This document shows positions 169 to 21,182 of a DNA stretch of 64,000 nucleotides, in pieces. Below the pieces are notes generated by a model. The model saw nothing but the letters and a program-made list of their open reading frames with translations, had not been told where the DNA came from and searched no databases. How positions within the stretch are numbered: the stretch's first letter is position 1; each line of letters opens with the position of its first letter. The translations under genes and the position numbers were made by a program. This DNA is from Rivularia sp. PCC 7116 (GTDB taxonomy: Bacteria > Cyanobacteriota > Cyanobacteriia > Cyanobacteriales > Nostocaceae), in assembly GCF_000316665.1 (NCBI RefSeq), contig NC_019678.1, positions 4,464,001-4,528,000 of the forward strand, written 5' to 3'.

Positions 169-2925
169 TTAATTGACTTTAACTTTAAATCTTATAAAAC
201 CATAAGAATTAGTTGGTTTGGTTTGCGTCTGGTCAACATTTGCGGTAGGTATAATATCTTGGTTGACATTGTCTTTATTGACTATATTCACAACAACAGC
301 ACCATTATTATTACTACTAGAACAAGCTATAGGTGGTGTTTCCCCAGCAGAGAAAAATTCTCCTCTGTCACTATCAGCTACATTCGTAATATAGGCAGTA
401 GGGTTCTTAGGATAATTCGTACTATCAAAAGCAATTGCTATACCTAAATTAGCCGTACTCAAACCGCCATCTGTAGGAGTTGAACCGTTGAAGGCTGTAG
501 GAATAAAAGTCGTATAAGTTGGTATTACATCGCATATTTTTAATTTACTGGCATCTTTCTCACCTATTGAAAGAAAGTAAATAGTGTATTCTAATTCATC
601 ACCAGGAACAACCAAACCGCCGTTAACTGCTCCACGTAGAAAATCATTGCTACTTGTATCTGAGGGGTCAGAATCTGGCCAGTTGCTATTGTTATCTTCG
701 ATACTATTAGGATCGTCAACAAATTGATCGAAATTAACCCCATTAATTGCCGTAATCCTCTTAACTAACAGCACCTTTGGAGAGCCAGTTACTACAGTTT
801 TTTCTACTGTAATAATAGTTGGTTCGTCATCTGCGGTGTTGGAGGGGTCATTTCCGGTATTTTGACTATCATCATCGATCTGTTTGAAAGGATTACCTTG
901 AGTTGGTGGATTATCTTGCGTTGCTCCCGCAGAATCAGCATCGGTTAAAGCGGTTCCGCTTGTTGCAGAGCTGTCGTTTGTATTGAAAGTTGCATTTGCT
1001 TGGTTGTTAATAGAATCACCATCATTATCGTTATTAATTGTGGCTGTAATTTTGATAATAATCTCATCATTGACTCTCAGAGTACCTGAATTAGACAATG
1101 CACCAGAACCGCTGTAGGAAGAATTTAAAATAATATTGTTGCCGTCAGTTTTCGAGACGATTTCAGAGTTGTTGTAAGTTAACTGAGGCGGTAAGGTATC
1201 TTGAATAATGAAATTTGTCGCATCTGTTTGAAAATCGGGAGATTGATTAGAGTAAGTAATAGTGTATTCAACTGTGTCTCCTACAGTTACCGTACCGCTA
1301 TTGTCTTTATCTTCTAGAAAGCGTACCGATTTTGTACCTCGTACATTTGCAGACTTATCGTCGGTAATAATCAGATTGGTTGATGTTGCTTCACTAGGGA
1401 AATAAGCCCAAGTATCGATTCCTTTAAAATCACCATAATTATTACTAAATTTGTGCGCTCCACCATTACTGTCTACTCCAATTGAGGCATTACGGGGATT
1501 ACTAGCACCGCTACCACTTAAATCTACATCTGTTCCATTGCTTGTTGTGTAGTTTTCATCGTTATAGTAAACCGTAAACCTGTTACCTACTGGAAATGCA
1601 GTAGGTGCATTAAGCATTTCAATTACAAACCCATTAGAATTACTCTCTACATCTAACATTGGAAAGTGATATTCTCCAGTTCTCAGTCTAATTCTCGCAT
1701 CATATGGGTCGTTATTGATGCGAGGAGGTAAGTTGTTACCTTGTCCATCTTGACCATCCCAACGCACTACATTACTACCTACAGTGACTATATTTTGGAG
1801 AACTGTATCTTTACTAGGGTCAAATATATTGTCTTTATCAGTATCAATAATAATTTCGTAGCTACCGGGACTTGTAGAATCAAAACTGAAATTCCCTCCA
1901 ACTCCAACAACAGTTTGATTTCCGCTTCCTCCATTACCACCAGTAAATTTAAAGTTGGTTGGTGTTATAGGTATTGCTGGTACAAGGGGAATATTTAGCT
2001 GATTTAAAGTTTCTGCATCCGGACGATTGAAAAATACTAAGTGAGTAATGTCTGTATTAGTATCTTCAACATCTGGACGCTGTACCTGAACGTTACCTAA
2101 AAAAGGGTCGAGACTAAAATTATTCTGACCTGCATTAGCAGAATGATATAAAGTGCTATTATCAGTTTGATCGATAAATCCCCGACTATTTGCGAAGAAG
2201 ATGAAACCGAATGGATCGATTCCATTCATCGAAGTTTTATATAAAAACCCGTCTTTAGTTTGGATGAAAAAATTAGAATTGAGAGACTTTTCAACTGTAC
2301 CCATGTTCATAGCTAAGTAGTTGGTAAATACTCGGCCATTCTTAGTATTACCATCTTCGTCTCGAACTGTAATATCCCAAGCGGCTACAGTCATTTGTTG
2401 CTGATTATCCGTGGGGAAATCCTCACTCGTAGATTTTGCTGGTGGATCTCCACCATCTGGATTTGGAGAATGAAATTCTACTTCGTATATCCCCGTACTA
2501 TCTACTGTAAATTGACAGGGTGTATAACCATCTGGATTCGGTAATGGTCCGGCTGTTTCTTTAGCTGTCTTATCTATTAAACCTTCACCACCTTGGTCCA
2601 ATCTCTTAACGTCACAAATTTGCTCCGTGGTAGAAGGAATGGGACCTCGAAAGACAATATCTCTACCATCAAAACTGTTATGGACGCTAGAACCAAGGTT
2701 GACAGTTTCTCCATTTTTAACAACTACTTTCAGTAGAGTTTTACGTGAAATCTTTGCTGTTTCTCTATTCGACCATTCTATATAAGGTCTATCTCCACCT
2801 TGAAAAACTAATTCTTTTGAACCTTCGGCTTGTGATGGTATCGCCCAAAAGTTCAAAAGAAATATTGTAGTAAATAAGCTACTAAAAAAGTTTATCTTAC
2901 CTTTTTTTTTTGCGTCAAAAATCAT
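169..2925 (-). CDS. Large exported DUF11-repeat surface protein
   Basis: Predicted secreted or surface protein of about 918 aa; no enzymatic domain is recognised. The reading frame is open to 2988, but the ATG at 2925 gives a clean signal peptide (basic KKKGK, hydrophobic segment, A-x-A-like cleavage before EGSKE), so I prefer it; neither start has a clear Shine-Dalgarno. The body is beta-rich, Asn/Asp/Gly/Ser/Thr-rich and almost Cys-free, with a DUF11-like segment in the middle (dkDNSGTVTVGDTVEYTIT followed by DTLPPQLTY). The last ~220 residues match the C-terminus of the 1199-aa protein encoded at 4390-7989 (LLVKRIT..., NGAVVVN, SYGFIRFKVKV). It is the last of seven co-oriented surface genes, separated from the previous one by 1.4 kb. 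Function as adhesin, sheath or S-layer component is inference. Confidence 0.85.
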   Translation of the reverse strand: MIFDAKKKGKINFFSSLFTTIFLLNFWAIPSQAEGSKELVFQGGDRPYIEWSNRETAKISRKTLLKVVVKNGETVNLGSSVHNSFDGRDIVFRGPIPSTTEQICDVKRLDQGGEGLIDKTAKETAGPLPNPDGYTPCQFTVDSTGIYEVEFHSPNPDGGDPPAKSTSEDFPTDNQQQMTVAAWDITVRDEDGNTKNGRVFTNYLAMNMGTVEKSLNSNFFIQTKDGFLYKTSMNGIDPFGFIFFANSRGFIDQTDNSTLYHSANAGQNNFSLDPFLGNVQVQRPDVEDTNTDITHLVFFNRPDAETLNQLNIPLVPAIPITPTNFKFTGGNGGSGNQTVVGVGGNFSFDSTSPGSYEIIIDTDKDNIFDPSKDTVLQNIVTVGSNVVRWDGQDGQGNNLPPRINNDPYDARIRLRTGEYHFPMLDVESNSNGFVIEMLNAPTAFPVGNRFTVYYNDENYTTSNGTDVDLSGSGASNPRNASIGVDSNGGAHKFSNNYGDFKGIDTWAYFPSEATSTNLIITDDKSANVRGTKSVRFLEDKDNSGTVTVGDTVEYTITYSNQSPDFQTDATNFIIQDTLPPQLTYNNSEIVSKTDGNNIILNSSYSGSGALSNSGTLRVNDEIIIKITATINNDNDGDSINNQANATFNTNDSSATSGTALTDADSAGATQDNPPTQGNPFKQIDDDSQNTGNDPSNTADDEPTIITVEKTVVTGSPKVLLVKRITAINGVNFDQFVDDPNSIEDNNSNWPDSDPSDTSSNDFLRGAVNGGLVVPGDELEYTIYFLSIGEKDASKLKICDVIPTYTTFIPTAFNGSTPTDGGLSTANLGIAIAFDSTNYPKNPTAYITNVADSDRGEFFSAGETPPIACSSSNNNGAVVVNIVNKDNVNQDIIPTANVDQTQTKPTNSYGFIRFKVKVN

Positions 2926-3003
2926 AGTATCGCTAAGATACAAACCCTGTAATATTAAATGCATTGATGTGCTAAAGCCGCGTGTCACAAATAGGGAACT
3001 TTA

Positions 3004-3093
3004 CTGAAATAACATGTGAATTTGTTATAAAACATATAGATATTTCGGCATAGAATACTATGCTGAAATATCTGAATTCACAATGTTATTCAG
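3004..3093. repeat. Long imperfect palindrome in the leader of the 939-aa surface gene
   Basis: Nested inverted repeat. Outer arms 3004-3022 and 3075-3093 pair with two single-base offsets; inner arms 3038-3053 and 3058-3073 pair with one mismatch around a 4-base centre (AATA). A 15-base bulge lies on the left. It sits about 80 bp upstream of the chosen start of the minus-strand surface gene, so it could be a leader hairpin or a palindromic mobile repeat. Confidence 0.75.
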
Positions 3094-3655
3094 CAAAATA
3101 GATATACTTCTTTGAGCTAAGAAGCTATCAAATCATCTTGAACTATAGGATAGGCAGGAAGCCCATTCCTCATTAAAAAGGGAACACTAAAAAATAAATC
3201 AAGTTTTCTTGTTATGAACTATAGTAAGTTTGTTGTTTTTGCTTTAAGATTGCATCTTCTAAGTTATTAAGTTAGAAGATAAACCTGCTTTTTCAAGCTG
3301 CAATAACGACAGCCTACATTAATTCAAGACAAGTTAACTGGTAGAAGACTTTTGTCTTATCTTATATATTGCCCAAAAAATTATCATTTGTATCTAGGTA
3401 ATATTATTGAAATTTGATTAAATAGCCGAAAATTTCCCGGATATTGCGTAGTATCCGGAAAAATACGGGTTTCAAAAAATAGAATTAAAAATTAGGGTTT
3501 GACTTTATATAGCAATCCAGTTTGATTTTTGAATGAAATTAAGCAGTTTTAGCGTTATGCCTTTAGCCTAACGCACCGAAACCTAGGTATTATAGTGTAG
3601 TGCTTTGTGCTACATCACAACACATCCGAAGTGTTTTTCAATAATCAAATAGTAA

Positions 3656-4389: not shown

Positions 4390-7300
4390 TTATTTCACCC
4401 TACCTCTAAACCTAACGAAACCGTAGGAAGTATTTGGCGTACCGGGAGCGGTAGCTAATGGTAAATTCCCCAGATTCACCACGACTGCACCGTTAGTATT
4501 TGTACCGTCACATTTTATTTTGGGATAAACGGTAGAAGGTTCAATTCCGGGGGGGAAATACTGCGCTACGTCACCGTCTTTGACGTTGGTTAAAGATTCT
4601 GTATTACCGTCTTTTAACCATTGAATACCTCTATCCGCGTTTTGCAATCCTCCTGTCGCTTGATTGGCTTCGCCGTTGAAGCTGTTGGTAACAAAAGTAA
4701 CGTTTTCGGGAACGCGATCGCAAAATAGTACGTTCTTTGCTTCGCTGTCACCTCCGGAAAGGTAGTAGATTGTGTATTCAATTTCGTCGTCGGGTTCAAC
4801 TTTTCCACCGTCGATTCCACCGATGAGGAAGGTACTGCTTGTGTCTGAAGTGGTACCAAGCCACTTATCAGTGTCCACTGGGTCGGGTGCGGGATTATCT
4901 AGTTTATTATCATCGTAGGGGTTTGAGTCTTCTTGATTGTAAATTGCGAGGTTATCACCATTGTTGGTAGTGATACCGTTGTTAATTTTGGTAATGCGTT
5001 TGATTAATAGAATGTTGGGGTTATTGGCAATTGCTTCGATTGCAATTTGATAATCTTCTACTTCTCCATCGCTAGCACCACCACCAGGGGTATTAGCATC
5101 AATACCAGCATCTGTTGTAAATCTAAAGCGTGCATAGGTATCACCTGCTGCACCAGCATTAATATTGCTCCAACTTAAATCATTTGCAGCAGTACCATTA
5201 GTCACTGCAACACTAGTATACTCACCCGGTTCAAAGGTACCATTCTTATCAAAGTCAAGCCAAGCATGGAGAGTTCCAGTACCCGTTGCCGTGATATTCT
5301 CGGCAGGGATTGTATAGCTAGTATCACCTTCATTCAATGTTGGTAAGTTAATTCCATCATCTTCGGCACCATCGCCGCTACCGTCGAGGGGAGTTGCTGC
5401 ATCTGTTTCACTATCTGGAGCAGTTCCTAGATGAATGCCACTTACAATCGCATGATTAGCACCATTGTTGGCACTGGTTGTACCGTAGCTATCTGGTGCG
5501 TCACCGTAATCTAATACAGGTACAACAGGGTTTGAGTTGGAATTATTGTATGAAACACACTCAAAATATAGTGAGTTAAGTCGCTGATTAGAAACATTTG
5601 AAGGCGGATTATTGCCGATGATAAGACCAGCTCGATAATTGAAAACTCCAACTTGATCGTATTTAACACTACCCATATTAGCAGTGTTTAGGTTGATGCC
5701 AGGATTTACGTCAGTTGATTGACTTTCAAGACGTATTGTTGTGCTATCGATCTGGGTAGCTGTAAGCTTAGACGGAGTTTCAATAGTATAGGAATTAGGA
5801 GCATTTCCGCTGAACTGTACGAATTCTCTAACAACAGTATTATCTCCATCAGTATCAACACTTGTGGCTAGCACGGTATTTAAGTTTATTGGTGTACTAG
5901 TGCCTGATTGAACAAACCTAATCTGAAAATCAACACTGTATTCACTTGGATTTGTAGAGTTAGACTGTACTTCTGGTTGGAAGGCGCTAACCAAACCAGT
6001 AGTGGTAACATCTAGCTGAGCAATAGTGGCATTATTTAAAGCAATTACTTCAACTAGAGCATCTGTATTTGCTGCAACATTAGGAAAGCGGTAGACTGCG
6101 CCAATTGAAAAGTCTCCGTTGGTAGTACCAGGTTCCGGGGTCGGGTTTTGGAAATTAAGTATGGTTTGCTCTGTTAACAGACTATTAGCCGGACAAGCTG
6201 TTAATGGGGGTGAGGCTGATGTTTTATCAAAGCCAAAGTTTTGATTTGTAATCGCACTACCAGAAACAGTCACAGCTAAATCATTAGGTGTTCCCAAAGT
6301 GTATCCATTGGGAATATCGCTGTCGTTGGTATCAACTTGGATTTTATAATTACCGTTGACAACGTCTGTGAAGGTGTAAGCACCATTTGCGTCAGTGGTG
6401 GTGGTTTTAATGACGCTATTGTTGTTATCGAGCAGATTTACAGTAATATCTGCTGGTAGTTTCGGTTCGCTTGCATCTAAGTCATCACCACCGTCGCTAT
6501 CTTCGTAGAGTGTACCCGAAATTGTTGTACTTGTTGGGGCTACAACTGTCAAAGAAACGCTGCTTTGATCGTCTTCTGATGCTTGATTGTTATTCGGTGT
6601 GGAATCAACATCAAATTCTCTTATAGAGGTAACTTGAGCCGAATTAGTAATTGAACCGCTACCAGTCACCCTGGCTCTAAATTGTAAAGTAGTATTATTC
6701 CCTTTTAAAACTTCGTTAACGTTCCACGTTACAGTGCGACTACCTATATCGTAAGTAGGTGTAGTTCCCGATGGAATAGTAACAAATGAATCGAATTCTA
6801 AGTTTGTAGGTAAAACATCTTCAACGACTAAGTTATTTACATCACTGTAAGCGTTATCACTGGCTGCTGCATCATTAGTGAGTGTCAGCGTAAAGGTGAC
6901 GATATCATTTACATTTGGGCTGTTATCGTTAACAGTTTTGTTCAGCGAAACATCAACTGGAGGTAACAGAAAACAACCAGAAGCTTCATAGTCACCACCA
7001 ATAGTTAACGGTCTCCGATTGCTTACTGCTGCCGTGTTTTTATCGACATCATAAAGACGATTCCTAGTAGAACCGCTAGAGCCAGTAGAAATATAAAGTT
7101 TACCGTTGAGATCGAAGGCAATATCCTCAACGTCGTCAATTGAGCTTCCATTCTCCTGGAGTTCACCAACTAAGCTAGTAGCCCCAGTGTTCTTGTTAAT
7201 GGTGACTAGATTCTGATTACCGCCAGTGCTACCCTCATTAGCAATACCATAAAGGGTTCCATCAGCTGGGTCAATTGCGATACCATCAATGTCATCGCGT

Positions 7301-7989
7301 CCATTCTGCGGTTGAATGACAACATAATCCACATTCGTACCAAAAGCATCAGGAATATGCCGTCCTGTTACCGGATCGACCTTAATCAAGATATCAGGAG
7401 GAGATCCTCCATCTCCGGTTCGGATAGAAGCATATAAAGTACCATCAGTTGGATCGAAAGCTAAACCGTCTGGATCTCTGAAGTTGATACTGCCTCTTTC
7501 GCCATTTCCTGTGCCCATTAAATTAGCCCGAGGCGTAAAAGCACCTGTAATTAGGTCAATTGTACCAAGTCGCCCACTAGATTCTTGATTGGCAGCAAAG
7601 AGAATATTGGTACCTGGTTGGGCTGCTGCTGCTTCAATGTTATTAGTACCGGTTCCGGAACTAATTTGGAAAAACTGTCCCGTATCTGTATTCATTTTGA
7701 CTAAAAAGTCATTTCCATTGGTACCACCTACATCAGAAATAAGGTAACAAACTTGATCGACTGCGGCTAAAGCAGGTGCTGTTGTTAAGAATGTCGGTGT
7801 CAAAACTACAGCAGAAAGCGGCACAAGTTTATAAATTGATGTACTCAACACTTTAGAATATTTGGCGATCGCACTCATAATACCTAAATTTGTGCCTGCT
7901 GCTAGTTTCTGGGAAAACTTTTTTTTTGATTTCTTATTGATTGATTTTAGCGAAGAGAAACACATTACATATTTGCATAATATTTTCAT
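4390..7989 (-). CDS. Multidomain surface protein: propeller-like, DUF11, SdrD-B, GEVED
   Basis: Exported 1199-aa protein. The long signal region ends near TTAPALA/AVDQ (about residue 75). Next comes a propeller-like repeat region of ~260 residues (repeated DGLAFDPTDGTLY and DGIAIDPADGTLY motifs), a DUF11 domain (~345-480, DVSLNKTV...TNDAA, VEDVLPTNLEF), an SdrD B-like domain (~495-590, GTLYEDSDGGDDLDASEP), an unassigned beta domain, and a GEVED domain (~840-970, DYGDAPDSYGT ... DGEVEDYQI). The final ~215 residues are homologous to the C-terminus of the 939-aa neighbour and end SYGFVRFRGRVK. Such domains are extracellular and often Ca2+-binding (DxDxDG loops); no catalytic residues are apparent. 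It probably works with the barrel and OmpA proteins encoded upstream. Confidence 0.9.
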   Translation of the reverse strand: MKILCKYVMCFSSLKSINKKSKKKFSQKLAAGTNLGIMSAIAKYSKVLSTSIYKLVPLSAVVLTPTFLTTAPALAAVDQVCYLISDVGGTNGNDFLVKMNTDTGQFFQISSGTGTNNIEAAAAQPGTNILFAANQESSGRLGTIDLITGAFTPRANLMGTGNGERGSINFRDPDGLAFDPTDGTLYASIRTGDGGSPPDILIKVDPVTGRHIPDAFGTNVDYVVIQPQNGRDDIDGIAIDPADGTLYGIANEGSTGGNQNLVTINKNTGATSLVGELQENGSSIDDVEDIAFDLNGKLYISTGSSGSTRNRLYDVDKNTAAVSNRRPLTIGGDYEASGCFLLPPVDVSLNKTVNDNSPNVNDIVTFTLTLTNDAAASDNAYSDVNNLVVEDVLPTNLEFDSFVTIPSGTTPTYDIGSRTVTWNVNEVLKGNNTTLQFRARVTGSGSITNSAQVTSIREFDVDSTPNNNQASEDDQSSVSLTVVAPTSTTISGTLYEDSDGGDDLDASEPKLPADITVNLLDNNNSVIKTTTTDANGAYTFTDVVNGNYKIQVDTNDSDIPNGYTLGTPNDLAVTVSGSAITNQNFGFDKTSASPPLTACPANSLLTEQTILNFQNPTPEPGTTNGDFSIGAVYRFPNVAANTDALVEVIALNNATIAQLDVTTTGLVSAFQPEVQSNSTNPSEYSVDFQIRFVQSGTSTPINLNTVLATSVDTDGDNTVVREFVQFSGNAPNSYTIETPSKLTATQIDSTTIRLESQSTDVNPGINLNTANMGSVKYDQVGVFNYRAGLIIGNNPPSNVSNQRLNSLYFECVSYNNSNSNPVVPVLDYGDAPDSYGTTSANNGANHAIVSGIHLGTAPDSETDAATPLDGSGDGAEDDGINLPTLNEGDTSYTIPAENITATGTGTLHAWLDFDKNGTFEPGEYTSVAVTNGTAANDLSWSNINAGAAGDTYARFRFTTDAGIDANTPGGGASDGEVEDYQIAIEAIANNPNILLIKRITKINNGITTNNGDNLAIYNQEDSNPYDDNKLDNPAPDPVDTDKWLGTTSDTSSTFLIGGIDGGKVEPDDEIEYTIYYLSGGDSEAKNVLFCDRVPENVTFVTNSFNGEANQATGGLQNADRGIQWLKDGNTESLTNVKDGDVAQYFPPGIEPSTVYPKIKCDGTNTNGAVVVNLGNLPLATAPGTPNTSYGFVRFRGRVK

Positions 7990-8544: not shown

Positions 8545-8565
8545 AGACGTTGCACTGCAACGTCT
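8545..8565. repeat. Interspersed palindrome, AGACGTTGCA type
   Basis: AGACGTTGCA, one central base, then TGCAACGTCT: perfect 10-bp arms. The same family recurs at 8781-8803 and, interrupted, at 17741-17776. Confidence 0.7.
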
Positions 8566-11091: not shown

Positions 11092-14000
11092 TCATCTTCC
11101 TTGTCCTGTCATCAGTCTTTGCAACAGCGAATTTTTGATTTCTTGAGAATTATTTCCGGTTTTGACTTTTTCGACTAAGTTTTCTACAGGATTATTTTTA
11201 GCACTGGAGAGAGAATTTTTCATCACCTGTTCCCCGTTCCCCGTTCCCTTCTTAATTCTATTCAACAAGTTTTGTCGAGCTTCTATTTTTTTTCGGGGTA
11301 CTCTCTTCTGCAAACCGAAACCGCTAAACAGCTGATTCAGCTTCATTGTCACACCCAGATATGGTCCGCTAGCGGAACGACTACCGTCAAAATCGCGGTC
11401 GTCTATTTCCCCAAAAGCATAACCCCCAGCTATTCTTAAGTTTGGTGTGAGATAATAGCCAGCTTCCACAACAAAACCTGTTTCGGTATAGTCGGATTGA
11501 GTAATTACTCTTGCTTCTCCAACTAAATCCCAACTGTAACCCAAACGGTAAGTAGCGCGTAACTGTCCCAGATTTATGGTACTGCTAGATGAAAAATCGT
11601 TAGCTAAATAAGTAGTACTGTTGCGTAAAGCATATTTACCATAGAATTCCCATTGCCAATTTGGAGCGTAAATAGTTTCTATGGCAAAAGTATGGTCTTC
11701 TGCACCAGTACCGGTTCCAAATAAGATGGTATCGGGAATTGTTGAAGGATTCTTACGATATTCGTAACGCATTAAAGCGTTGAATTTATCGTTTTTAGGA
11801 TTGCGGTATGCTAAACCCACTCTTAAATTAGCGGTATCTCCAAGTGCAGCCAAACTTTGATTGCTCGAACCACTTTGTTGATAGCGTGCTAATGCAGTAA
11901 GAGATGATGAAATCTTACCAGTAGCACCTGCGGAAATTACTGTGTTATTACCGCTAGTTGAATTTCTCCGCTCAAATAAAGCGCTAGCCTTAAAGTTGGG
12001 ATTGTCAGTATATTCTAGACCAATGCTGTAGCTATCTCCAGAATTGAAACCTAGAGCAGCAGCGCTTTGACCTACAGCAAAGGGTTGTCTAAATTGTTGC
12101 CCGGTGGCATTATTACCAAAAAAGTCACCAAAAACGCGCTCGTAAGCTAGATTTAAACGCAATCCAGGAGCAATGGTTAAACCTTGCTTTAAGCCTAAAG
12201 CACCTTGAGTAGTAGGTCCGTTACTTCCACCCAATACAGAGAAGCGTCCGGTAACTGTGGTATCGGTACCAAACTTATGTTCTCCGTTGACATTCAAACT
12301 GGTAATAGAATTACCGTCAAATTGTCCTTGAGTGAAAAACTGTTGCGTTAGCGAAAGGTTAATACCCTTGATAGCTTCCCAGTTAATCCCAAAGACAGTT
12401 CTATCTGGATAAACTGCGTCTGTATTGTCGGATAATGTAGTTTCGTTTTGGGCTACAAAGGAAAGTTTTTTGGCAATAGGAACATTAAGACGAGAACGTA
12501 ATTGACTCGAATCTGTATTGAAAGTTTCGGGTGATATTCTATCTTCTCGTTGTCGATTAATCCAATCTACAGACAAATTCGCTTTACCAATCTTTTGTAC
12601 TACACCAGCAGAAATTGTGGTCAAGGAATTATCAACTGGATTTCCTGGAGTTGCGGTTAAACGTGGTGAAAACAACTCTTCAAAGGTGTCTAACGGTTGA
12701 GGAGCTACACCAAAATTGTCTTCATGGTCGTATTGGAAGCGTAAATTAGTTGTTTTAGTAACTCTTCCGTTAGCTTGAATACCGTAACGAGTTTGTCCGG
12801 GGACAAAACTAATAGTAGCGTTATTGGCAAATCCAGTATCAGCGAAACGGTAATAAGCACGAGTTCGTAAACCTTTGATAAGTTCAGCTTCAGCTTCCGC
12901 TCTCACAGCATCACCTTCCACCATTCCCATCTCGCTAGAATCGTTGCGAGAACGAGCGTATTCTGCGACAAATCTACCTAGCTTACCAAAAGAAATTTGA
13001 GCATCCGCACCATACAACTCAAAATCACGCGCTCCTTGGTTTTCCTGAAGATAAGTTGCTGCTAACCAACTATCTTTATTTTCACCGCGAGATAGATTAT
13101 ATTGCAAACGTCCTGCATAAATATCGGTATCGTCTCCTGCTTCTTCCCCTTCATACTGATAGGTGACAACAATACGTCTTACCAAGACATCACCAAATTC
13201 ATTCACATCAGTACGTAAAACGGGTTCCCGGAAGAAAACTGTTCCTCTATCGTAATCAATTTCGTAATCCGCACCTCTGTTCAAGCGTTCCCGTTGTAAT
13301 ACAGTACCGGGACGATTGAGTTCTTCTAATTCAATGAAAACAACTTCACTACCAGGTACGGTTAATCTCCGGGAGAGGAAATAAAGACCGCTAGTTCCAT
13401 CGGGAGCTATAGTATCTCGTTGAAAACCTTCTACATTATTTCCGTAGAAAGCCGTAGCTTGCAATTTACCTATGTTGTAATTCGCTTTAAAACCATGTAG
13501 CTGACGAGTTACAGAAGTAAACTGTTGTGAAGAGCGAGAGAATTCTTCAGTATTATAATCACCCCACATCGCATAATCTGGATTAGCACCAGGAACGCGA
13601 GAAGAGCGTTCAAATCTTAAATATACGCTGTCAGTAGACGGAGTAGTTTGATTTACTGTAGAACTATCACCGTAAACCGGATAATTATTTTCGCTAAATT
13701 GATAACTACCAAATAAACGATTATCGCAATTACAATCTTCATTCAGAGAACGACTGCTATCGTAAGCACCAGTCACCAACCATTCCCCAATAGCACCAGT
13801 TGCAAAAATAGCAGAACGGAATTTAACTTCGGTATCGTTATCTTCGTCTTCTGGAAGAAAATCTTTAAATCTACTGTAAAAATCCGTACCTCTAGCACCC
13901 AAGCGGAAATCGATAACACCACTCATCAAGCTTGGACGTAAAGCAGTTTGGAATTGTAATTGAGTATAGGCTTCTAATTTACCAGCTTTCGCCTTAATTC

Positions 14001-16089
14001 GTACAGTCTTAGCTTCCAAATCGGATTTTAGAGTTACCGTAAATTGTCCGTCTTTAGCTTGTACCTGAAATCCTGTTTGTCCGGGTTTGTAATCTGGCTC
14101 GAGGAATTTTCCTGCCGTAGATGCTAAAGTAACCACAGCATCACGCTTAGAAATATTACCGTTTTCGTCAATTAACGTACCTTTGAGGGTCGCAGTAGAT
14201 TTTCCATCCGCAGGAATACGAGATTCTACGGTATCGATTTTCATCTCCTGCGCTCCACCCCTCACCATTATTGTGACGGTAACGGGGGGTTCCTTTGAAC
14301 CAAGAACCTGAGCAGAAATAACGTTTTCCCCATTTTGTAGAGAAACACCATACCATGTCTGCGTAACCATATCGGTTTCGGAGTCAGTTTCGGTTCGTCC
14401 AATTAAGGAACGGTCGGATAATTCACCGTTAACCCGCAATTCTACCTCATTACCCACGGGGAATTGTACGATAATTGGAGTAGCAGCTACATCTACAACA
14501 GCTTGAGGAGTCGGTGAGAGGATGACTACTGTTGAAGAATTGTTCGTATTCTTGGGAAATTGGGAGATATATTGAGTGGAATTTGGTGTTAAGTTAGCGT
14601 TTAAATTATCGGGATTAGGTAAAGCAAAAGGAGATTTTGAATAAGCAGCTAAAAAGCTATTACTATTTAATCCTTGACTGCGATTATTCCCAGAATTAAA
14701 TGAGCTATACCCCGTAGCTAATCTCATCTCAGATGAATTTTGCTCGGAATTGTCTGTCAAATATGAAGGTCGAACTGCAACAAATGATGTAAATTTATAG
14801 CTTGTATCGTTGGGGTTTTCAGTGTTCCAATTCTTAGCAATTAAAGTTGGTGTAATTTCAGCTTGACGATTATTAGCAAGTGATTCAAATACATTAATTG
14901 CTAGTAGTTGAGAACCAAACTGAGAAACTATTTGCGTTACATCGTCTCTTGTTGCTGATGTATTCTGAGTTTGGAATTGTTGTAGTTTCTGCTGGTTTAG
15001 GAAAGGTTCTAAAGCAAGGAAATAATCACCATTAGAACTAATCGGAAATTCCTGTGGTTTTTGCTCGTTAATAAATGGCTCTAAAGCAAGAAGATAATTA
15101 CCATTAGAACTAATCGGAAATTTCTGTGGTTTCTGCTCGTTAAGAAAAGGTTCTAAAGCAAAAAGATAATTACCATTAGAACTAATCGGAAATTCCTGTG
15201 GTTTCTGCTCGTTAATAAAAGGTTCTAAAGCAAGAAGATAATTACCATTAGAACTAATCGGAAATTCCTGCGGTTTTTGCTCGTTAATAAAAGGTTCTAA
15301 AGCGATTAAATATTTCTTATTTGAATTATTTGAACTATTTAAACCTGTTTCTTGTAAGGAATTATCTAATTGCTTATTTATTTCTATTGGCAATATATTA
15401 TTTTGTATAGATGCAGAATATACGGCATCCTCAAGCTTTAATGTCCCAGGTTGAAGATTAGATGCAACCGCTGATAAATTTGTATTCTTATTCTCTTCTT
15501 TCGAGAGAGTAGTTTCAGATTGAGAATTTTCTAAAGCAAATAACTGTTGTTGAGAATTTGATATTTCCCTGCGCGGTGCTTTGAGCTTTTGAACTAAAGA
15601 TAATTTTTCATCATATTTTGTTGTAGACTTTAAAGCAATAAGCGTGCTTTCTGCTGTATTATTCCGTTCATCTACTAACTTCTGCAAACTAGCTGGTAGA
15701 TTGTTATTAACATTTTCAGGTGTTTTTAAAGCAGTTAATATGTATTCTGCTGCATAATTATGCTCATCTACTAATTGTTGTAAACTTGCAGGCAAATTTG
15801 TATTGGAATCTTCAGCTTTACTTAAAGCTATTATGTTAGGTTTTTTGGTTTTGTTTTTGGTTTGATTTTTATTCTTGCTATTTATCTCCAGAGCTTCAAC
15901 AAGTTGCTTTGAACGATTATATTTTTTAGCAGCTTTACTTGCTTTATTCTGCTTGTTTTGCTCGGATTCTGATTTATAAGTAGATTCAGCACCGGCTACG
16001 AATGGGTATAGCACCACACTCGCAGCACTTGCCATTGCTCCTATTAATTTAAAATTTAAAATATTTGCATGGCTTAATTGTCGTTTCAT
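11092..16089 (-). CDS. Giant outer-membrane beta-barrel protein with Ig-like domain and tandem repeats
   Basis: 1665 aa. Signal peptide (GAMASAASVVLYPFVAGA), then ~500 low-complexity residues with a recurring ALE/ALK motif and five near-identical 24-residue repeats (~260-380). Next is an invasin-like/Ig-like region (~530-715, SRIPADGKSTATLKGTL) and a long amphipathic barrel region (~720-1600) with the conserved stretches YPVYGDSS, GDYNTEEF, LEELNRPGTVLQRERL and DYEIDYDRGTVFF. That last block is found in large outer-membrane proteins accompanying DUF11/SdrD-B domains. Its ATG lies inside the stop of the upstream gene (ATGA, 4-bp overlap), preceded by GGAGG, implying translational coupling. It is likely the export or anchoring pore of the locus; specificity is unknown. 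Confidence 0.9.
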   Translation of the reverse strand: MKRQLSHANILNFKLIGAMASAASVVLYPFVAGAESTYKSESEQNKQNKASKAAKKYNRSKQLVEALEINSKNKNQTKNKTKKPNIIALSKAEDSNTNLPASLQQLVDEHNYAAEYILTALKTPENVNNNLPASLQKLVDERNNTAESTLIALKSTTKYDEKLSLVQKLKAPRREISNSQQQLFALENSQSETTLSKEENKNTNLSAVASNLQPGTLKLEDAVYSASIQNNILPIEINKQLDNSLQETGLNSSNNSNKKYLIALEPFINEQKPQEFPISSNGNYLLALEPFINEQKPQEFPISSNGNYLFALEPFLNEQKPQKFPISSNGNYLLALEPFINEQKPQEFPISSNGDYFLALEPFLNQQKLQQFQTQNTSATRDDVTQIVSQFGSQLLAINVFESLANNRQAEITPTLIAKNWNTENPNDTSYKFTSFVAVRPSYLTDNSEQNSSEMRLATGYSSFNSGNNRSQGLNSNSFLAAYSKSPFALPNPDNLNANLTPNSTQYISQFPKNTNNSSTVVILSPTPQAVVDVAATPIIVQFPVGNEVELRVNGELSDRSLIGRTETDSETDMVTQTWYGVSLQNGENVISAQVLGSKEPPVTVTIMVRGGAQEMKIDTVESRIPADGKSTATLKGTLIDENGNISKRDAVVTLASTAGKFLEPDYKPGQTGFQVQAKDGQFTVTLKSDLEAKTVRIKAKAGKLEAYTQLQFQTALRPSLMSGVIDFRLGARGTDFYSRFKDFLPEDEDNDTEVKFRSAIFATGAIGEWLVTGAYDSSRSLNEDCNCDNRLFGSYQFSENNYPVYGDSSTVNQTTPSTDSVYLRFERSSRVPGANPDYAMWGDYNTEEFSRSSQQFTSVTRQLHGFKANYNIGKLQATAFYGNNVEGFQRDTIAPDGTSGLYFLSRRLTVPGSEVVFIELEELNRPGTVLQRERLNRGADYEIDYDRGTVFFREPVLRTDVNEFGDVLVRRIVVTYQYEGEEAGDDTDIYAGRLQYNLSRGENKDSWLAATYLQENQGARDFELYGADAQISFGKLGRFVAEYARSRNDSSEMGMVEGDAVRAEAEAELIKGLRTRAYYRFADTGFANNATISFVPGQTRYGIQANGRVTKTTNLRFQYDHEDNFGVAPQPLDTFEELFSPRLTATPGNPVDNSLTTISAGVVQKIGKANLSVDWINRQREDRISPETFNTDSSQLRSRLNVPIAKKLSFVAQNETTLSDNTDAVYPDRTVFGINWEAIKGINLSLTQQFFTQGQFDGNSITSLNVNGEHKFGTDTTVTGRFSVLGGSNGPTTQGALGLKQGLTIAPGLRLNLAYERVFGDFFGNNATGQQFRQPFAVGQSAAALGFNSGDSYSIGLEYTDNPNFKASALFERRNSTSGNNTVISAGATGKISSSLTALARYQQSGSSNQSLAALGDTANLRVGLAYRNPKNDKFNALMRYEYRKNPSTIPDTILFGTGTGAEDHTFAIETIYAPNWQWEFYGKYALRNSTTYLANDFSSSSTINLGQLRATYRLGYSWDLVGEARVITQSDYTETGFVVEAGYYLTPNLRIAGGYAFGEIDDRDFDGSRSASGPYLGVTMKLNQLFSGFGLQKRVPRKKIEARQNLLNRIKKGTGNGEQVMKNSLSSAKNNPVENLVEKVKTGNNSQEIKNSLLQRLMTGQGR
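14979..15312 (-). repeat. 72-bp coding tandem repeat (24 aa, about five copies)
   Basis: Inside the barrel gene, five near-identical in-frame 72-bp units encode xYLLALEPFINEQKPQEF followed by PISSNG; the last is partial and diverged. Near-identity at DNA level implies recent expansion. The region precedes the Ig and barrel domains and is probably a flexible periplasmic or exposed spacer. Confidence 0.85.
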
Positions 16090-17660
16090 TTCTTTGTGTC
16101 CTCCCCAAAGTTCGGAGTGACTCCGAAGTTCATTCTCACCATTCCACCAGGTTCTAAATTTACTAGTCGTGATTGGCTGTTGCGTTCTTTAAATTTGACA
16201 TTGGGAGCCAAAGTATAATCGGGTATACTCTCTAAATCCAAAACACCTGTATGTTTACCAGGTAATGCATTTTTGACCGAATATAAACCGTCTGCATCAG
16301 TAGTTATGCGGTTGCCATTTTCTAAGAAAATTACAGCATTTGGAACTCCAGGTTCGCCTGCTTGTTGTTCTCCGTCAAAGTTTTTATCTACAAACACGCG
16401 ACCGATGATAGTACCGCAATCAGAAGTAATACCAGGTCTAATTTCTAATCTGTGAGTTGCAGGTCCATCTTTAACCGCAAAGTTATTATCAACTCTTTCC
16501 GCATTCACAGTCGCAGTGTTACGACCGGAACCTCTTACCGCATCAGGAGTTAAGGTTGCAGCATAAGCAATATTGAGAACCCCACCCACCGGGATAGTTG
16601 TATCAGTTCGGAAAGTAACAGTAGAACCATTCGTTTCAGTAGTTAGCGCAACTTCTTCATCCCCAATTTGACCGCGAACTGATTCCGGTATAAATTTAAA
16701 TCCGAGAGGGAATTGGTCGGTAACGACTATATCATTTAAACCAACATCACCCGTATTTCTTAACGACAGACGATAAACCGTAGTATCACCAGGTTCGGCA
16801 GTTGCTCTATCCCCAGTTTTAGTGATACGAATTTGGTCGGGAGAGCATAAATCTAAATTAAATTGTAGTGCTAAAGCTAAACCAATTCTTTCTGCATCAT
16901 CAATAACTACAGCTTGTTGGGAAATCTGAGTATCAGAGATTTGCACCGAATTTTCACCCGTAGCAGTGATTGGCTGACCATCTAAAGCAGTAGCAATATA
17001 GGTAAGGATATCCCCATCCAAGCTTTGAATTTCTAATCGGATTCGTCGCTCGGTGAAAGCAGAATTCTCAGGAGGATTAATAACTAAAATATAAGCACGA
17101 CCTACATCAGTTTGATTCTTGCTTTGGTCGAATAAGAAATTGTAAACTCCTCGTTTAGTTTCACCATTAGCAGTGGTCACAGGTTCATTGGTAACAGCAT
17201 AATTATTAGCATTAGTTATATTTGGTTGTATACCTTGAGGAGTAGTAGTATTGGGGTCATCATCAGTCGGGGTTAGGTCAACCACCGTTCCCGGTTCCGT
17301 TCCTGTTGGGTCGTTGGGGTCGGGGTTAAATAAAGTAACGGTAAAACCCGTGTAATCTTCTAATTCTTCTCCATTACAACCTAGAATTTGTCCGAAGGGG
17401 TCAATTAAGTCCGAAAGTGCTTGAGATGATTGAGGAACCGGAGTAATTTTTACTTGATTGGTAACTCCCCCTCTAAAAGTTTGATTATTTTTTTTATTGT
17501 TGTAATTAAATGTAGCTTGGTTGCTAATTGTTGGACGGGTAACCTCTTGAGCAAAGGTAGATATAGAGCTTTGAATAATACTTCCCGCTAAAACAGTAGC
17601 CGCTATCCGTTTAAACCAGCTACTACCATAAATTTGGTATCGCTTATTTTTGCGGCGCAC
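16086..17660 (-). CDS. DUF11 + SdrD-B exported protein coupled to the barrel gene
   Basis: 524 aa starting at GTG 17660, supported by AGGAGAAA six bases upstream. Signal peptide (AATVLAGSIIQSSISTFAQ), an N-terminal beta domain (ATFNYNN), a DUF11 domain (~275-400; ITKTGDRATAEPGDTTVYR, VVTDQFPLGFKF) and an SdrD B-like domain (~410-510; GRVFVDKNFDGEQQAGEPG, PGKHTGVLDL, PGGMVRMNFGV). In many bacteria this DUF11-SdrD-B module is fused directly ahead of the outer-membrane barrel; here it is a separate gene ending in a 4-bp overlap with the barrel gene, suggesting equimolar synthesis and a physical partnership. Confidence 0.9.
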   Translation of the reverse strand: MRRKNKRYQIYGSSWFKRIAATVLAGSIIQSSISTFAQEVTRPTISNQATFNYNNKKNNQTFRGGVTNQVKITPVPQSSQALSDLIDPFGQILGCNGEELEDYTGFTVTLFNPDPNDPTGTEPGTVVDLTPTDDDPNTTTPQGIQPNITNANNYAVTNEPVTTANGETKRGVYNFLFDQSKNQTDVGRAYILVINPPENSAFTERRIRLEIQSLDGDILTYIATALDGQPITATGENSVQISDTQISQQAVVIDDAERIGLALALQFNLDLCSPDQIRITKTGDRATAEPGDTTVYRLSLRNTGDVGLNDIVVTDQFPLGFKFIPESVRGQIGDEEVALTTETNGSTVTFRTDTTIPVGGVLNIAYAATLTPDAVRGSGRNTATVNAERVDNNFAVKDGPATHRLEIRPGITSDCGTIIGRVFVDKNFDGEQQAGEPGVPNAVIFLENGNRITTDADGLYSVKNALPGKHTGVLDLESIPDYTLAPNVKFKERNSQSRLVNLEPGGMVRMNFGVTPNFGEDTKK

Positions 17661-17740
17661 AAATTTCTCCTAATATAAATATTTAGATATTTTGAGTTTT
17701 TTATCTCTCAATCGTCATCGTCAAATTCTTAATAAAGAAA

Positions 17741-17776
17741 CGTAGCAATCCTATGATTTATTAATGCATTGCTACG
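17741..17776. repeat. Interrupted ACGTAGCAAT palindrome
   Basis: ACGTAGCAAT and ATTGCTACGT arms separated by about 16 bases, between the 189-aa and 524-aa surface genes. Same family as 8545-8565 and 8781-8803; possible intercistronic hairpin. Confidence 0.55.
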
Positions 17777-17804
17777 TCTCTACAATCTAAAATCCTAAAT
17801 TGTT

Positions 17805-18374
17805 TTATCGTACTCTTACCTGATATGTGCCGTTCACACTACCTTTTCCAGGGAGAGATTTACCAAAATTCCAACGCACATGGGTATAAGCAGTGTCGGG
17901 AGCGGGTCGAGTTTCTACCGTACCGTCAGCTAATTTAACTTCAATGGTGGGATTTTTGACATAGGTTTTACCACCGTTAATGCTGTAGGTAATTTGTGCC
18001 CCATCTTTTTCATTGACGGTTGCAGAATTAAGTACATAAGCCATTCCTCTTGGAATTGGTTGATTAATGGTGAGATTATTCACGGCTTTTTCACCATTAT
18101 TTGCACCAGATACGGAATAGCGGAGTACTTCTCCTTGCCCGACTTGAGCACCATTTGATAGCTCCTGCCAAGTTACTTTTCTATTACCTTGTGCATCTTT
18201 GGTAATAATTTTCTTCTCAGCTTTCAAACGCAACTGTACTTGTCCTTTCTTGGCATTTTGAGCAACAGCAGCCCCACCTTGAAATATGTTTGCAACTACA
18301 GGAATTTGACTGGTGAAGGTCATACCTGCAATTAATGCAACTGCGCTTAAACTTGCAATAGAAAAACGTTTCAT
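17805..18374 (-). CDS. Small single-domain DUF11-like secreted protein
   Basis: 189 aa. Signal peptide (ASLSAVALIAGMTFTSQIPVVA), followed by one DUF11-like beta domain (LRLKAEKKIITKD, GEVLRYSVSGANNGEKAVN, INQPIPRGMAYVLNSATV) ending in TYQVRVR. GAGGT sits upstream of the ATG. A short, single-domain, abundant-looking subunit beside a barrel pore and larger DUF11 proteins could be a polymerising surface subunit, but that is inference. It lies 144 bp before the 524-aa gene and 162 bp after the 881-aa gene, all on the minus strand. Confidence 0.88.
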   Translation of the reverse strand: MKRFSIASLSAVALIAGMTFTSQIPVVANIFQGGAAVAQNAKKGQVQLRLKAEKKIITKDAQGNRKVTWQELSNGAQVGQGEVLRYSVSGANNGEKAVNNLTINQPIPRGMAYVLNSATVNEKDGAQITYSINGGKTYVKNPTIEVKLADGTVETRPAPDTAYTHVRWNFGKSLPGKGSVNGTYQVRVR

Positions 18375-18429
18375 ATCAATTACCTCAAAAAGTATTGCTG
18401 AAAGTTACTGTTGAGAATTTAATTTTGAT

Positions 18430-18458
18430 AAACCCGGCTGTTTCAAGAAACCGGGTTT
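18430..18458 (-). terminator. Hairpin after the 881-aa surface gene
   Basis: AAACCCGG (18430-18437) pairs with CCGGGTTT (18451-18458), with inner TTTC/GAAA pairing. It lies 80 bp past the stop of the 881-aa gene. No strong T-run follows on the minus strand, so it may be an attenuating intercistronic hairpin or an interspersed repeat rather than a full terminator. Confidence 0.5.
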
Positions 18459-18536
18459 TAAACTCGTTCGGTTTCCCGTAAGTTGAAGTAAAGACGCTGC
18501 ATGATTCACGTCTTTATGGATAAGTTTATCTACTAA

Positions 18537-21182
18537 TTAGTTAGTTGGATTACCAGTTCCACCAGTTCCACCGGTACCACCTGTTGGATTATCACCAGTT
18601 TGTCCGGTTGCGTTAATCTTACGTTGGAAGGTAAAGGTTCTAGCTTCTTTAGGCTCAACATCATCGCTAACAACTACCACGTATGTGGTAACATCAGCAG
18701 CCTGTGTTGTACCGGACTGGTCGCCGTTAGGAGTAAACTCAACGTTTGCACCACCGGAATCGCTTGCAGAACCAACAACGTTACTGGTGTCAATTTCACC
18801 ATTATTATCGTTATCTACCGCCCAGTTGTTACCGAGAGTAGTATCAGTACCATCCTCAGTAATTCTGATATCGCTAGCATTCAAGATAATGTTGCCAGTA
18901 CCAGATTGAGGCTCGGAAATATTCTCGTAAGTGATGCGATATTCCAAGACGTTTCCAGGTGCGGGTGTCTTAGGATCTGTACTAAATGTTCCATCATTAT
19001 TTAGTACGTCTGGACCATCATCCTTAAGTACGCGGGTTTCTTTGACCATTTGTAAGTAACCAACATACACGCGGTCAATGGTGACGTTTTGAGCTTGTGT
19101 TTGAGTATTGGAGTCAGTAAACACAGTACCGTCTTCTGCGAGTGGCTGGTCAGTAGCATCAACAATGAAAGATTTCATCGGTACGGGATAGCCGCGCTCC
19201 ACATCAGTATCGGTAGAAAGTTTAGTATCTGGGGGTAGATTTACTTCCACACCATAGTTATCGGTAGCATTTGCCGCAACTTGAGGAATCTTAACTTGCG
19301 TTCCTGAACTGAGGGTGAAACCACCAGCATTAGCGTTAGCGGTTGGGTCGTATGTATAAGTTGCTAGCTGGCTCTGGTAAGTAACGGTAACAGTTGTACC
19401 ATTAGGTAAGTCAGTTGCAGTTGCAGGTGGAATAGGTTCTACAACAATATCAGCAGCAGCTTGTCCGGTATTCTGAACTGTATTGGTGAAGCTCACACCA
19501 TCTGGGTCAACTCCAGTACCAGGTACAGTTCCCGCAGGTACTAAGGAAGACTGGTTAGTGAAGTCCTTATTATTGTCGTTTTCTGCAACAGCATCCGGAT
19601 TATCTTTAGGACCATTTAACAGAGAAAAATCTCCTTGCTCGCTAATTGTAAAGACGTTTGGTTCGCCTTTTTCACCAGTACCACTGTTGTTATTTTGGGT
19701 GTCAATATCACCAGGATTGTTGGGGTCAACAGAACCATCTTCAACCACGGTATTTGGGAAGAATCCTCCACCATCGGGAGCATCGGGAATACGGTCGGGA
19801 GTACCATTTGGACCACCTGTAGTATCTGTATCAGTTAGAGGAGTTCCATCATCATTGTAGTTACTGGGGTTGTTGTCACCAGATTCGTCATACACTGGGA
19901 TATTATTGGGGCTTTTACCAAATAACTGAGCAACGTTAGCAACTGTTACAGAGGTGTCAGTTGTAGTGTTCAACTGAACAGTAACTTTAAATCCACCTAC
20001 TGTTTGTCCGGGAGCAATACTACCAGTACGGACAAAACCAATTCTGGTAACGTTAGCTGGAATAGTGTTGGGATCTGCTAAAATCTGCCAGGTCGCTTCA
20101 TAAGCTCTTGTAGCTAAACCATTGGTGGTAGTAACCGCTTGCCAACCCGGAGGAACTACAACACTACTGAGGCTAGTACCTTGTGGAATCGCATCAGAAA
20201 CTAAGATTTGGTCGCTAGTTGTACCACCAATATCAATGGGAGTACCTTCTAAAGGTGAAGGGCTAATTCCGTTACCAGTTGGGTCGGTATTTTCAACTTC
20301 TAAACTTAAATCATAGGTAACTGTATCTTCAGAAGGTCCATCTGCTCCAGCAACGGTATGGTCGCTACGAACTTTCAAGACTTTAGCCAAAGTGTAGGTC
20401 TTGAGGTCAGAATCTACAACTGCTTCTAAGGTTGCACTAGCTTCACGAACGCCGTTTGAAGGAGTACCAGCTACTTCACCAGGTGCGCCGTTATCATCAT
20501 TATCTACAGTAAATACGTCACCACCATCACTGCTTCTAGGAATGTTTTGCTCATCACCAGGAGTTTCACCCAACTTAACAGCGATTGTTTCTCCACTTTG
20601 GGCACCGGGCTGAACTTCCACAGCAACCCTTACTAAAACTGATTCATCAGGGTCTATTGAATTGGTAGTAGTACCACCGGTAGCTACAGTTTCCCAAGTA
20701 GTACCGCCGTCGTAACTAATTTCAACCGGACCGTCTGGATCGCCAGGATTGTCTGGAGCATTTACGGTGGTGAGAGTTGCAGGACCTGTTACAGTAGGTT
20801 GGTCGGGAATCCTAAACTTTGTTGGGTCGTTACCTACGTTCGTGACGGTATAGTTGTAGTAGACTTTGTCGCCAATGTTGATTTTACTATCTCCGTTTTG
20901 GTCTCCAGAGTCAGTAAACTCAGTATTCGCAGGAGTAACAGTGATACCAGCGACTTCAGCAATAGTTACTCGAACGGTGTTAGAAGTAGTATTAATTGTT
21001 TCCCCTGGATTATTGGGGTCTTCGTAAGTCGCTGTAGCAGTGTTATCGATAGTTTGACCGCCTGCTCCACCTTCAGCTAGTACGGGAGCAACCAATTGAA
21101 ATATACCATTAGCAACCAATGCAGTTGCAACCAAGGAACGATATATCTGTCCCTTTTTGACAAAGTTCTTTTTGTGTGACAT
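18537..21182 (-). CDS. Large DUF11-type surface protein, first gene of the locus
   Basis: 881 aa, acidic and rich in Asp/Asn/Gly/Thr. Signal peptide (LVATALVANGIFQLVAPVLA) followed by GGAGGQTIDNTATATYEDP, typical of DUF11-family exported proteins. Several DUF11-like segments follow (ITVTPANTEFTDSGDQNGD, KVYYNYTVTNVGNDP, DLSLEVENTDPTGNG, LEYRITYENISEP). The C-terminus is a flexible GGTGGTGGTGNPTN tail with no sorting signal I recognise. As first gene of the run it probably carries the operon promoter; its leader contains two tandem hairpins (21213-21261). No enzymatic motif is seen. Confidence 0.88.
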   Translation of the reverse strand: MSHKKNFVKKGQIYRSLVATALVANGIFQLVAPVLAEGGAGGQTIDNTATATYEDPNNPGETINTTSNTVRVTIAEVAGITVTPANTEFTDSGDQNGDSKINIGDKVYYNYTVTNVGNDPTKFRIPDQPTVTGPATLTTVNAPDNPGDPDGPVEISYDGGTTWETVATGGTTTNSIDPDESVLVRVAVEVQPGAQSGETIAVKLGETPGDEQNIPRSSDGGDVFTVDNDDNGAPGEVAGTPSNGVREASATLEAVVDSDLKTYTLAKVLKVRSDHTVAGADGPSEDTVTYDLSLEVENTDPTGNGISPSPLEGTPIDIGGTTSDQILVSDAIPQGTSLSSVVVPPGWQAVTTTNGLATRAYEATWQILADPNTIPANVTRIGFVRTGSIAPGQTVGGFKVTVQLNTTTDTSVTVANVAQLFGKSPNNIPVYDESGDNNPSNYNDDGTPLTDTDTTGGPNGTPDRIPDAPDGGGFFPNTVVEDGSVDPNNPGDIDTQNNNSGTGEKGEPNVFTISEQGDFSLLNGPKDNPDAVAENDNNKDFTNQSSLVPAGTVPGTGVDPDGVSFTNTVQNTGQAAADIVVEPIPPATATDLPNGTTVTVTYQSQLATYTYDPTANANAGGFTLSSGTQVKIPQVAANATDNYGVEVNLPPDTKLSTDTDVERGYPVPMKSFIVDATDQPLAEDGTVFTDSNTQTQAQNVTIDRVYVGYLQMVKETRVLKDDGPDVLNNDGTFSTDPKTPAPGNVLEYRITYENISEPQSGTGNIILNASDIRITEDGTDTTLGNNWAVDNDNNGEIDTSNVVGSASDSGGANVEFTPNGDQSGTTQAADVTTYVVVVSDDVEPKEARTFTFQRKINATGQTGDNPTGGTGGTGGTGNPTN

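Follow-up and report, generated by a model that had tools for sequence, protein, structure and literature searches.

The window analysed here, a stretch of 64,000 nucleotides from the cyanobacterium Rivularia sp. PCC 7116 (NC_019678.1, positions 4,464,001 to 4,528,000; assembly GCF_000316665.1), carries seven genes designated, from upstream to downstream, G881, F189, E524, D1665, C720, B1199 and A939 (a letter followed by the protein length in amino acids, aa; letters alone denote the genes and their relatives). This seven-gene set is a conserved unit. Judging its function from genomes, we consider the chances about even that the locus encodes an uncharacterised outer-membrane display or assembly system, in which E and the giant barrel protein D would form a platform and the proteins sharing the C-terminal domain (CTD) of A939 and B1199 would be exchangeable cargo.

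An earlier note on this DNA, made from the sequence alone, had proposed a surface-assembly locus and suggested a search for the same neighbourhood in other cyanobacteria. Such a search found the gene set conserved. The order G-F-E-D was present in all 71 named loci having more than 6 kb upstream of D, 69 of them identified by script and two (L119 and L120) by reading; these two were missed by the script only because the mechanical D start lies more than 60 bp inside E. The named loci are the best 80 of 455 barrel stretches, with a bias to close relatives, mostly Nostocales. Among these 80, that of Rivularia sp. MS3 is the nearest, its best segment being 91% identical; Calothrix parasitica NIES-267 and an uncultured Calothrix follow with 85% each. 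The script located E ahead of D in 72 named loci; the 4-bp overlap of the two genes recurred in 61 of these, while the other 11 spacings ranged from -56 to 612 bp as measured from mechanical starts. D relatives were detected in 39 of 116 genomes of the class sample and in 67 of 148 genomes of the order sample; three named loci belong to genomes of the class sample (L140 = G107, L139 = G087, L154 = G017). The fraction of locus pairs with a match rounds to 1.0 for each of F, E, G and D. Because of these conservation counts, chance is excluded as the cause of the gene set.

Two types of locus were distinguished. A type I locus reads G-F-E-D-(C)-CTD protein, and G-F-E-D was complete in 26 of the 28 type I loci; L062 becomes the 27th if its F match counts, and L060 is without G and F. 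In type II loci a short E' (312-352 aa, the DUF11 and SdrD_B half) stands directly before D in 11 of 11 cases, and D is often followed by C and then by a CTD protein. The genome of Rivularia sp. PCC 7116 (8.73 Mb, 3 contigs) holds one type I locus, that of the window, and two paralogous type II loci, L039 (5.83-5.85 Mb) and L040 (8.62-8.64 Mb), one of which has a 2538-aa CTD protein. Among the 64 named loci with more than 7 kb downstream of D, a separate C was found in 16 and a CTD protein in 55. A plasmid of strain NIES-970 (Picosynechococcus by record) also carries G, F, E and D together with a CTD protein.

The CTD, about 210 aa long, is common to A939 (from about residue 726) and B1199 (from about residue 979). 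The same domain closes the large DUF11 proteins of other loci and ends exactly at the C-terminus. In an alignment of 30 CTDs (A3), every row has the K, R and T of the first strand, a CD pair and, near the end, RF; 29 rows keep a second cysteine, and the ending resembles GF[VI]RFRx[KR]V[NKD]. The F of [RK]F sits 5-6 residues from the end in all 78 proteins of the type I set, which include doubles from the overlap of the named loci with the class sample. When these proteins were compared in pairs (n = 3003), the CTDs were alike in 3001 pairs and the parts N-terminal of them in 968. Nine CTD proteins scanned with Pfam showed GEVED, lamin-tail, SdrD_B, DUF11, a sub-threshold FlgD_ig or nothing. 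A constant CTD behind varied N-terminal parts is the pattern that exchangeable cargo with a fixed end tag would leave.

No Pfam or NCBIfam model above cut-off covers the CTD; DUF11-type repeat matching above cut-off extends over part of it in A939 and B1199, and one DUF11 match in this region in the whole-genome scan stayed under the cut-off (23.3 vs 24.6). The AlphaFold model of the CTD (pLDDT 79.7, with ten-residue means of 81-97 from residue 91 on) is beta-rich, the end motif being its last strand. Compared with the PDB, this model gave no match at E<=0.001; the top match was 4uzg, the pilus 2b backbone of group B Streptococcus (GBS; E 4.6e-3, TM 0.29). Second in rank was Thermus TTHA1873 (7wrk and related entries, E ~0.01), a solved structure of unassigned function on which no paper was found in the literature searched. 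The CTD profile retrieved from the PDB only six proteinases (E 0.22-0.34). It should be further pointed out that K, D and N, as needed by isopeptide-forming domains, are kept in 30, 30 and 27 of 30 aligned rows, and that A939 passes the cut-off of TIGR04226 (39.7 vs 30). An isopeptide bond in the CTD is a guess from these residues.

CTD and barrel occur together. With genome matches counted at E<=0.001, the CTD was found in 47 of the 116 class genomes, namely in 38 of the 39 with a barrel vs 9 of the 77 others (Fisher p = 8e-21, a value that ignores kinship). For 51 of the 68 strong CTD matches a barrel is no more than 10.3 kb away. A further 12 are in genomes that carry the barrel on a different contig, and 5 belong to genomes without a barrel; the genome of Rivularia sp. 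PCC 7116 itself has four clear CTD proteins, in three barrel loci. Trees of D and of the CTD were built from the 32 loci, out of 40, having both. In the D tree, 11 type II barrels form one clade (100/100), and in the CTD tree all 20 type I CTDs form one clade together with that of L073 (96/100). L073 is listed as type II, yet it falls with type I in both trees. Four genomes (G015, G025, G054 and G084) hold both types, and in each of them every CTD stands beside its own barrel type. Hence, the CTD was seen to co-segregate with the type of barrel.

Meanwhile, CTD genes were also retained away from the barrel. Nine named loci have more than 7 kb downstream of D and no CTD gene there, and a CTD gene was found elsewhere in all nine genomes. 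In seven Nostoc or Desmonostoc genomes it stands by itself, the 16-19 kb fetched showing neither a barrel nor E or F. Symploca (L151) has four CTD genes, one of them on the contig of the barrel, and the CTD genes of Aliterella (L148) lie on a different contig from the F-like match.

Over the barrel of D1665 no Pfam or NCBIfam model scored above cut-off, and the only Pfam matches of the protein were sub-threshold ones to Invasin_D3, Big_1 and DUF2490. An AlphaFold2 model of residues 515-1610 (pLDDT 69.8, pTM 0.53) begins with immunoglobulin (Ig)-like strands and continues with long strands, 27 of which lie between model residues 547 and 1069. The giant barrel that the earlier note had recognised is thus backed by a model of middling confidence, whereas no barrel family matches the protein. 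D is, according to this model, probably a large barrel of no identified family. PDB matches of the model comprise the Mtr complex, Deinococcus SlpA and the type IX translocon (TM 0.16-0.21), besides many Ig-like domains. The D profile (A1) retrieved from the PDB at E<=1 only five glycoside hydrolases, through their Ig-like parts, and no SprA chain, and the Pfam scan of D gave no S-layer homology (SLH) match. In seven fetched loci (L052, L056-L060 and L073) D itself ends in an OmpA-like domain, placed after the barrel. In Pfam scans of four D proteins, OmpA scored over cut-off in L052 and L056 and was unlisted or under cut-off in L059 and NIES-970. Because the OmpA-like domain comes after the barrel, the C-terminal end of the barrel would be periplasmic. 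The N-terminal part of D contains a 24-aa repeat, encoded by 4.5 copies of a 72-bp unit (window 14981-15303, 91% matches); it precedes residue 480, a part to which most D matches of the class genomes do not extend.

E immediately precedes D, and the two are a single protein in plasmids of Acinetobacter and Pacificitalea. This arrangement suggests that E and D are the core of the locus.

F was found in 30 of the 116 class genomes, once in each, and all 30 have a barrel. Twenty-eight of these matches lie within 3.1 kb of a barrel; the remaining two are in barrel genomes but on a different contig. Among the cyanobacteria sampled, F occurs in type I loci only. The results speak neither for nor against the role of repetitive subunit that the earlier note proposed for the 189-aa protein. 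Searched against the PDB, the F profile gave a single chain (E 0.021), and the Thermus F gave none. DUF7925, the domain of G, occurs in 28 class genomes, 27 of which have a barrel, and G is likewise confined to type I loci. A shorter G without DUF7925 is found in family f29. The G881 profile is matched by the N-terminal part of some CTD proteins as well (L088, at 15817-18612, and L095, L152, L200 and L208), so the G881 domain is portable too. As for the OmpA wall anchor claimed as a member by the earlier note, it is present as C720 or as the domain joined to D in the seven loci mentioned above; with a separate gene in only 16 of the 64 named loci, a separate OmpA gene was ruled out as an essential member.

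Relatives outside the cyanobacteria were sought by tblastn of D against 72,556 plasmids, a biased sample, which gave 39 records; nine were opened, one of them cyanobacterial. D relatives were found on plasmids of Thermus, Deinococcus, Acinetobacter, Vibrio and Alphaproteobacteria. In all nine opened records the barrel relatives stand beside E-like genes, and in two of them E and D are one protein. In Thermus thermophilus HB8 (pTT27), T. brockianus and Deinococcus ficus, genes resembling F, G, E and D follow one another (F-like E-values 3e-16, 1e-18 and 3e-17, respectively), with the 4-bp E/D overlap by annotation in all three; in a Sinorhizobium plasmid E is annotated directly upstream of D. 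Acinetobacter haemolyticus carries an F-like gene, a 2008-aa E-D fusion (D 1.3e-78, E 3.6e-37) and genes for OmpA and a large DUF11 protein, and Pacificitalea an F-like gene and a 2032-aa fusion of E-like, DUF7925 and D parts. In three further plasmids D follows a long protein that contains an E-like part. This protein measures 2684 aa in Devosia, 3362 aa (by coordinates) in Sinorhizobium and at least 2992 aa in Vibrio campbellii, where an OmpA-like gene comes next. These three stretches begin inside or just before the long E-like gene, so that any upstream F lies outside their range.

With the gene set found conserved elsewhere, surface assembly with the barrel as its outer-membrane platform, as proposed by the earlier note, remains the best reading. 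The gene products would be exported by Sec, and D would form a giant outer-membrane barrel preceded, towards the N-terminus, by Ig-like domains. E would probably be made in step with D via the overlapping start and join it as a single platform, because E and D are one chain in two proteobacterial plasmids. In the very long Devosia, Sinorhizobium and Vibrio proteins the E-like part is at the end, much as the root of a stalk would be. F and G may be secreted accessory or structural parts. A939 and B1199 would use their conserved C-terminal Ig-like domain to dock on the D/E platform or to pass through it, and could then be displayed at the surface as adhesin or sheath proteins, while OmpA, as the separate C or as a domain joined to D, might tie the assembly to peptidoglycan. 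A bolder version, which we hold tentatively and at well under even chances, is an undescribed export or display system of diderm bacteria, unrelated to type IX secretion by sequence tests, in which D and E would recognise the CTD as a portable signal and type I and type II barrels would each be served by their own CTD type in the same genome.

Several observations weigh against cargo display on an E-D platform. One barrel genome, G108, is without a CTD match, and its locus is also without F and G. Five barrel-less genomes of one family contain a clear CTD-like domain (87-107 bits), so the CTD may act without D; four further barrel-less genomes gave weak CTD matches, perhaps just to DUF11. The cluster is patchy: of the genera listed for the family of the window, two have the barrel and four lack it, so gain or loss is common. 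The downstream DUF11 proteins outside the cyanobacteria match the CTD profile partly or not at all. The D model is of middling confidence, and its PDB matches have low TM values (~0.2). Block inheritance of the locus could also explain much of the co-segregation of D and CTD. Unlinked CTD retention is a test that is independent of linkage. As a separate observation, L189, L190, L191 and L193, barrel-less and of one family, have C-terminal CTD-like domains, some of them behind proline-threonine linkers.

A static coat was weighed as well, with D as a structural protein like Deinococcus SlpA, with E, F, G, A and B as independently exported sheath or S-layer parts, and with the CTD as a lattice contact. 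SlpA and S-layer entries (8ae1, 8agd and 7zgx) are among the best PDB matches of the D model, albeit at TM ~0.2, the conservation of F, G, E and D in all or nearly all locus pairs is as expected of structural parts, and CTD-like domains do occur in barrel-less genomes. The absence of an SLH match in D speaks against such a coat, and a tag better suits a domain that stands strictly at the end of the protein, has varied partners and persists as an isolated gene in genomes with a barrel. We therefore regard the coat as rather unlikely. By analogy with SprA of type IX secretion, D could alternatively be an outer-membrane conduit for the CTD proteins, with the CTD as export signal. The very long barrel part (~890 residues), the type IX translocon entries among the PDB matches (6h3j, 8gl6 and 8gl8, TM 0.16-0.17) and the logic of a C-terminal tag agree with this explanation, which we nevertheless consider unlikely: SprA is missing from the PDB matches of the D profile at E<=1, neither A939 nor B1199 has a sorting domain of the type IX secretion system (T9SS) up to E 0.1 (Pfam, NCBIfam), and the SprA family (TIGR04189) was not found in the genome by a search run without a positive control. 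It is very unlikely that the genes have separate jobs as channel, wall anchor and adhesins and stay together only as an old block. Such independence would suit OmpA and CTD genes that come and go (16 and 55 of 64 loci) and the distances of 0.8 and 1.4 kb that separate B1199 and A939 from their neighbours; it is at odds with the E-D fusions and overlap, with the joining of OmpA to D, and with the unlinked CTD gene kept in all nine genomes tested.

The features of the locus are listed in Table 1.

Table 1. Features of the seven-gene locus (window coordinates)
Feature	Position	Strand	Description
A939	169-2988	-	939 aa; CTD protein with DUF11 (Pfam)
CTD of A939	172-813	-	215.4 bits against profile A3 (itself a row of A3)
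B1199	4390-7989	-	1199 aa; CTD protein with DUF11, SdrD_B and GEVED (Pfam)
CTD of B1199	4393-5055	-	216.5 bits against profile A3 (itself a row of A3)
C720	8817-10979	-	720 aa; OmpA (~8901-9185) and beta-helix (~9738-10037); optional gene
D1665	11092-16089	-	1665 aa; predicted giant outer-membrane barrel; Ig-like part ~13951-14589, barrel ~11275-13944 (AlphaFold2 model)
E stop/D start overlap	16086-16089	-	4 bp
E524	16086-17660	-	524 aa; DUF11 (~16485-16832) and SdrD_B (~16248-16400) (Pfam); putative D partner
F189	17805-18374	-	189 aa; small, putatively secreted DUF11-like protein
G881	18537-21182	-	881 aa; putatively secreted; DUF7925 domain (~19857-20390)

The seven co-oriented open reading frames of the earlier note were all present on the minus strand at the coordinates given there. 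The gaps G-F (162 bp), F-E (144 bp) and D-C (112 bp), together with the E/D overlap, confirmed the tight packing of five genes, and longer gaps separate C from B (827 bp) and B from A (1401 bp). The OmpA protein with a beta-helix was verified in C720 (PF00691, 69.6 bits; PF13229, 38.9 bits), and SdrD_B was above cut-off in B1199 and E524, as its SdrD-B content required. The description of four large DUF11-type proteins was correct for A939, B1199 and E524, all above the Pfam cut-off for DUF11, but G881 carries DUF7925 instead (PF25546, 192 bits; TIGR01451 15.7 bits, under its cut-off of 24). Similarly, F189 passed as a small single-domain DUF11-like protein on TIGR01451 (31.7 bits, cut-off 24) and fell short on PF01345 (21.4 bits, cut-off 24.6). 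A simple hydropathy scan of the first 90 residues found a signal-peptide-like stretch in all seven proteins; since it begins late in A939 (residue 38) and B1199 (residue 56), the true starts of these two may be further in.

Promoter and terminator scans gave counts not above those of shuffled sequences (39 vs a mean of 54.5, and 13 vs 13.9) and were not used. Just upstream of G881, an 8-pair hairpin followed by seven T lies on the + strand at 21214-21235; terminator-like sites overall were not above chance. The locus is flanked at 22492-24248 by a divergent PALP-family enzyme, presumably threonine-synthase-like, and a small open reading frame. Open reading frames of ~434 and ~91 aa recur at the same side of many named Nostocales loci, which suggests a fixed chromosomal address. 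The OprB porin encoded at 25120-27117, 4 kb off, has an S-layer homology domain; proteins of this kind are ordinary in the cyanobacterial outer membrane.

Protein export and the assembly of cyanobacterial sheaths, S-layers and adhesive surfaces are poorly known. A defined gene set with a candidate end tag makes cargo predictable from sequence alone. If the CTD is indeed a tag, proteins would reach surface display by a new route, and many unnamed DUF11 proteins would gain a role. The barrel is found in 39 of the 116 class genomes and a related locus on pTT27 of Thermus thermophilus, a species amenable to laboratory work.

The earlier note recognised no characterised system of this composition, and our literature searches, of limited scope, likewise found no description of this gene set. 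As far as tested, it appears to be new as a system, sharing with known ones only DUF11, SdrD_B, OmpA and Ig domains. Chaperone-usher pili consist of an outer-membrane platform, a small Ig-like protein and adhesins with a varied N-terminus and a conserved C-terminal Ig-like domain. The likeness extends to the proposed platform, the small Ig-like protein and the putative adhesins with a constant C-terminal domain, but no usher was found here: PF00577 gave 0 matches in the Rivularia genome, with a positive control in E. coli, and none in D, so this candidate was rejected. Inverse autotransporters such as intimin and invasin resemble D in having Big_1/Invasin_D3-type Ig-like domains joined to a barrel (sub-threshold matches in D). 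Their barrel is N-terminal with the passenger after it, whereas the D model shows the reverse order, and with no such barrel family matched in the Pfam scan of D they were rejected too. Some distant barrels bear the record name TonB-dependent receptor. This identity was rejected, as no plug or receptor match was found in D up to E 0.1 or in five distant barrels up to E 0.01. With Deinococcus SlpA, of the S-layer deinoxanthin-binding complex, D shares a large, in D predicted, cell-surface outer-membrane barrel and a weak structural match, but no sequence-profile match at E<=1. The CTD recalls the isopeptide-forming Gram-positive pilins (RrgB, GBS pilus 2b) through TIGR04226 in A939, the top match 4uzg and the kept K, D and N, and it differs in that its model has no PDB match at E<=0.001.

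Type IX secretion combines a giant outer-membrane barrel with varied surface proteins bearing a common C-terminal domain (see also PMC5053529), and a like combination is predicted here. It was rejected as an identity because, in the parts compared, D has no SprA match and A939 and B1199 have no sorting domain. DUF11 domains of Ig-like fold occur in the surface filaments formed by the grappling-hook proteins GhpA of Aureispira and GhlA of Litorilinea, the latter being one chain of 6596 aa with 49 DUF11 domains and no signal peptide (PMC13319060). These proteins share the DUF11 domains of Ig-like fold with the present locus, which differs in having several Sec-type proteins and a barrel rather than one giant chain; a chain with tens of DUF11 domains was not found among A939, B1199 and E524, each of which has 1-2 DUF11 stretches. 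The grappling-hook form is approached more closely in the Sinorhizobium and Devosia plasmids, by their long E-like proteins.

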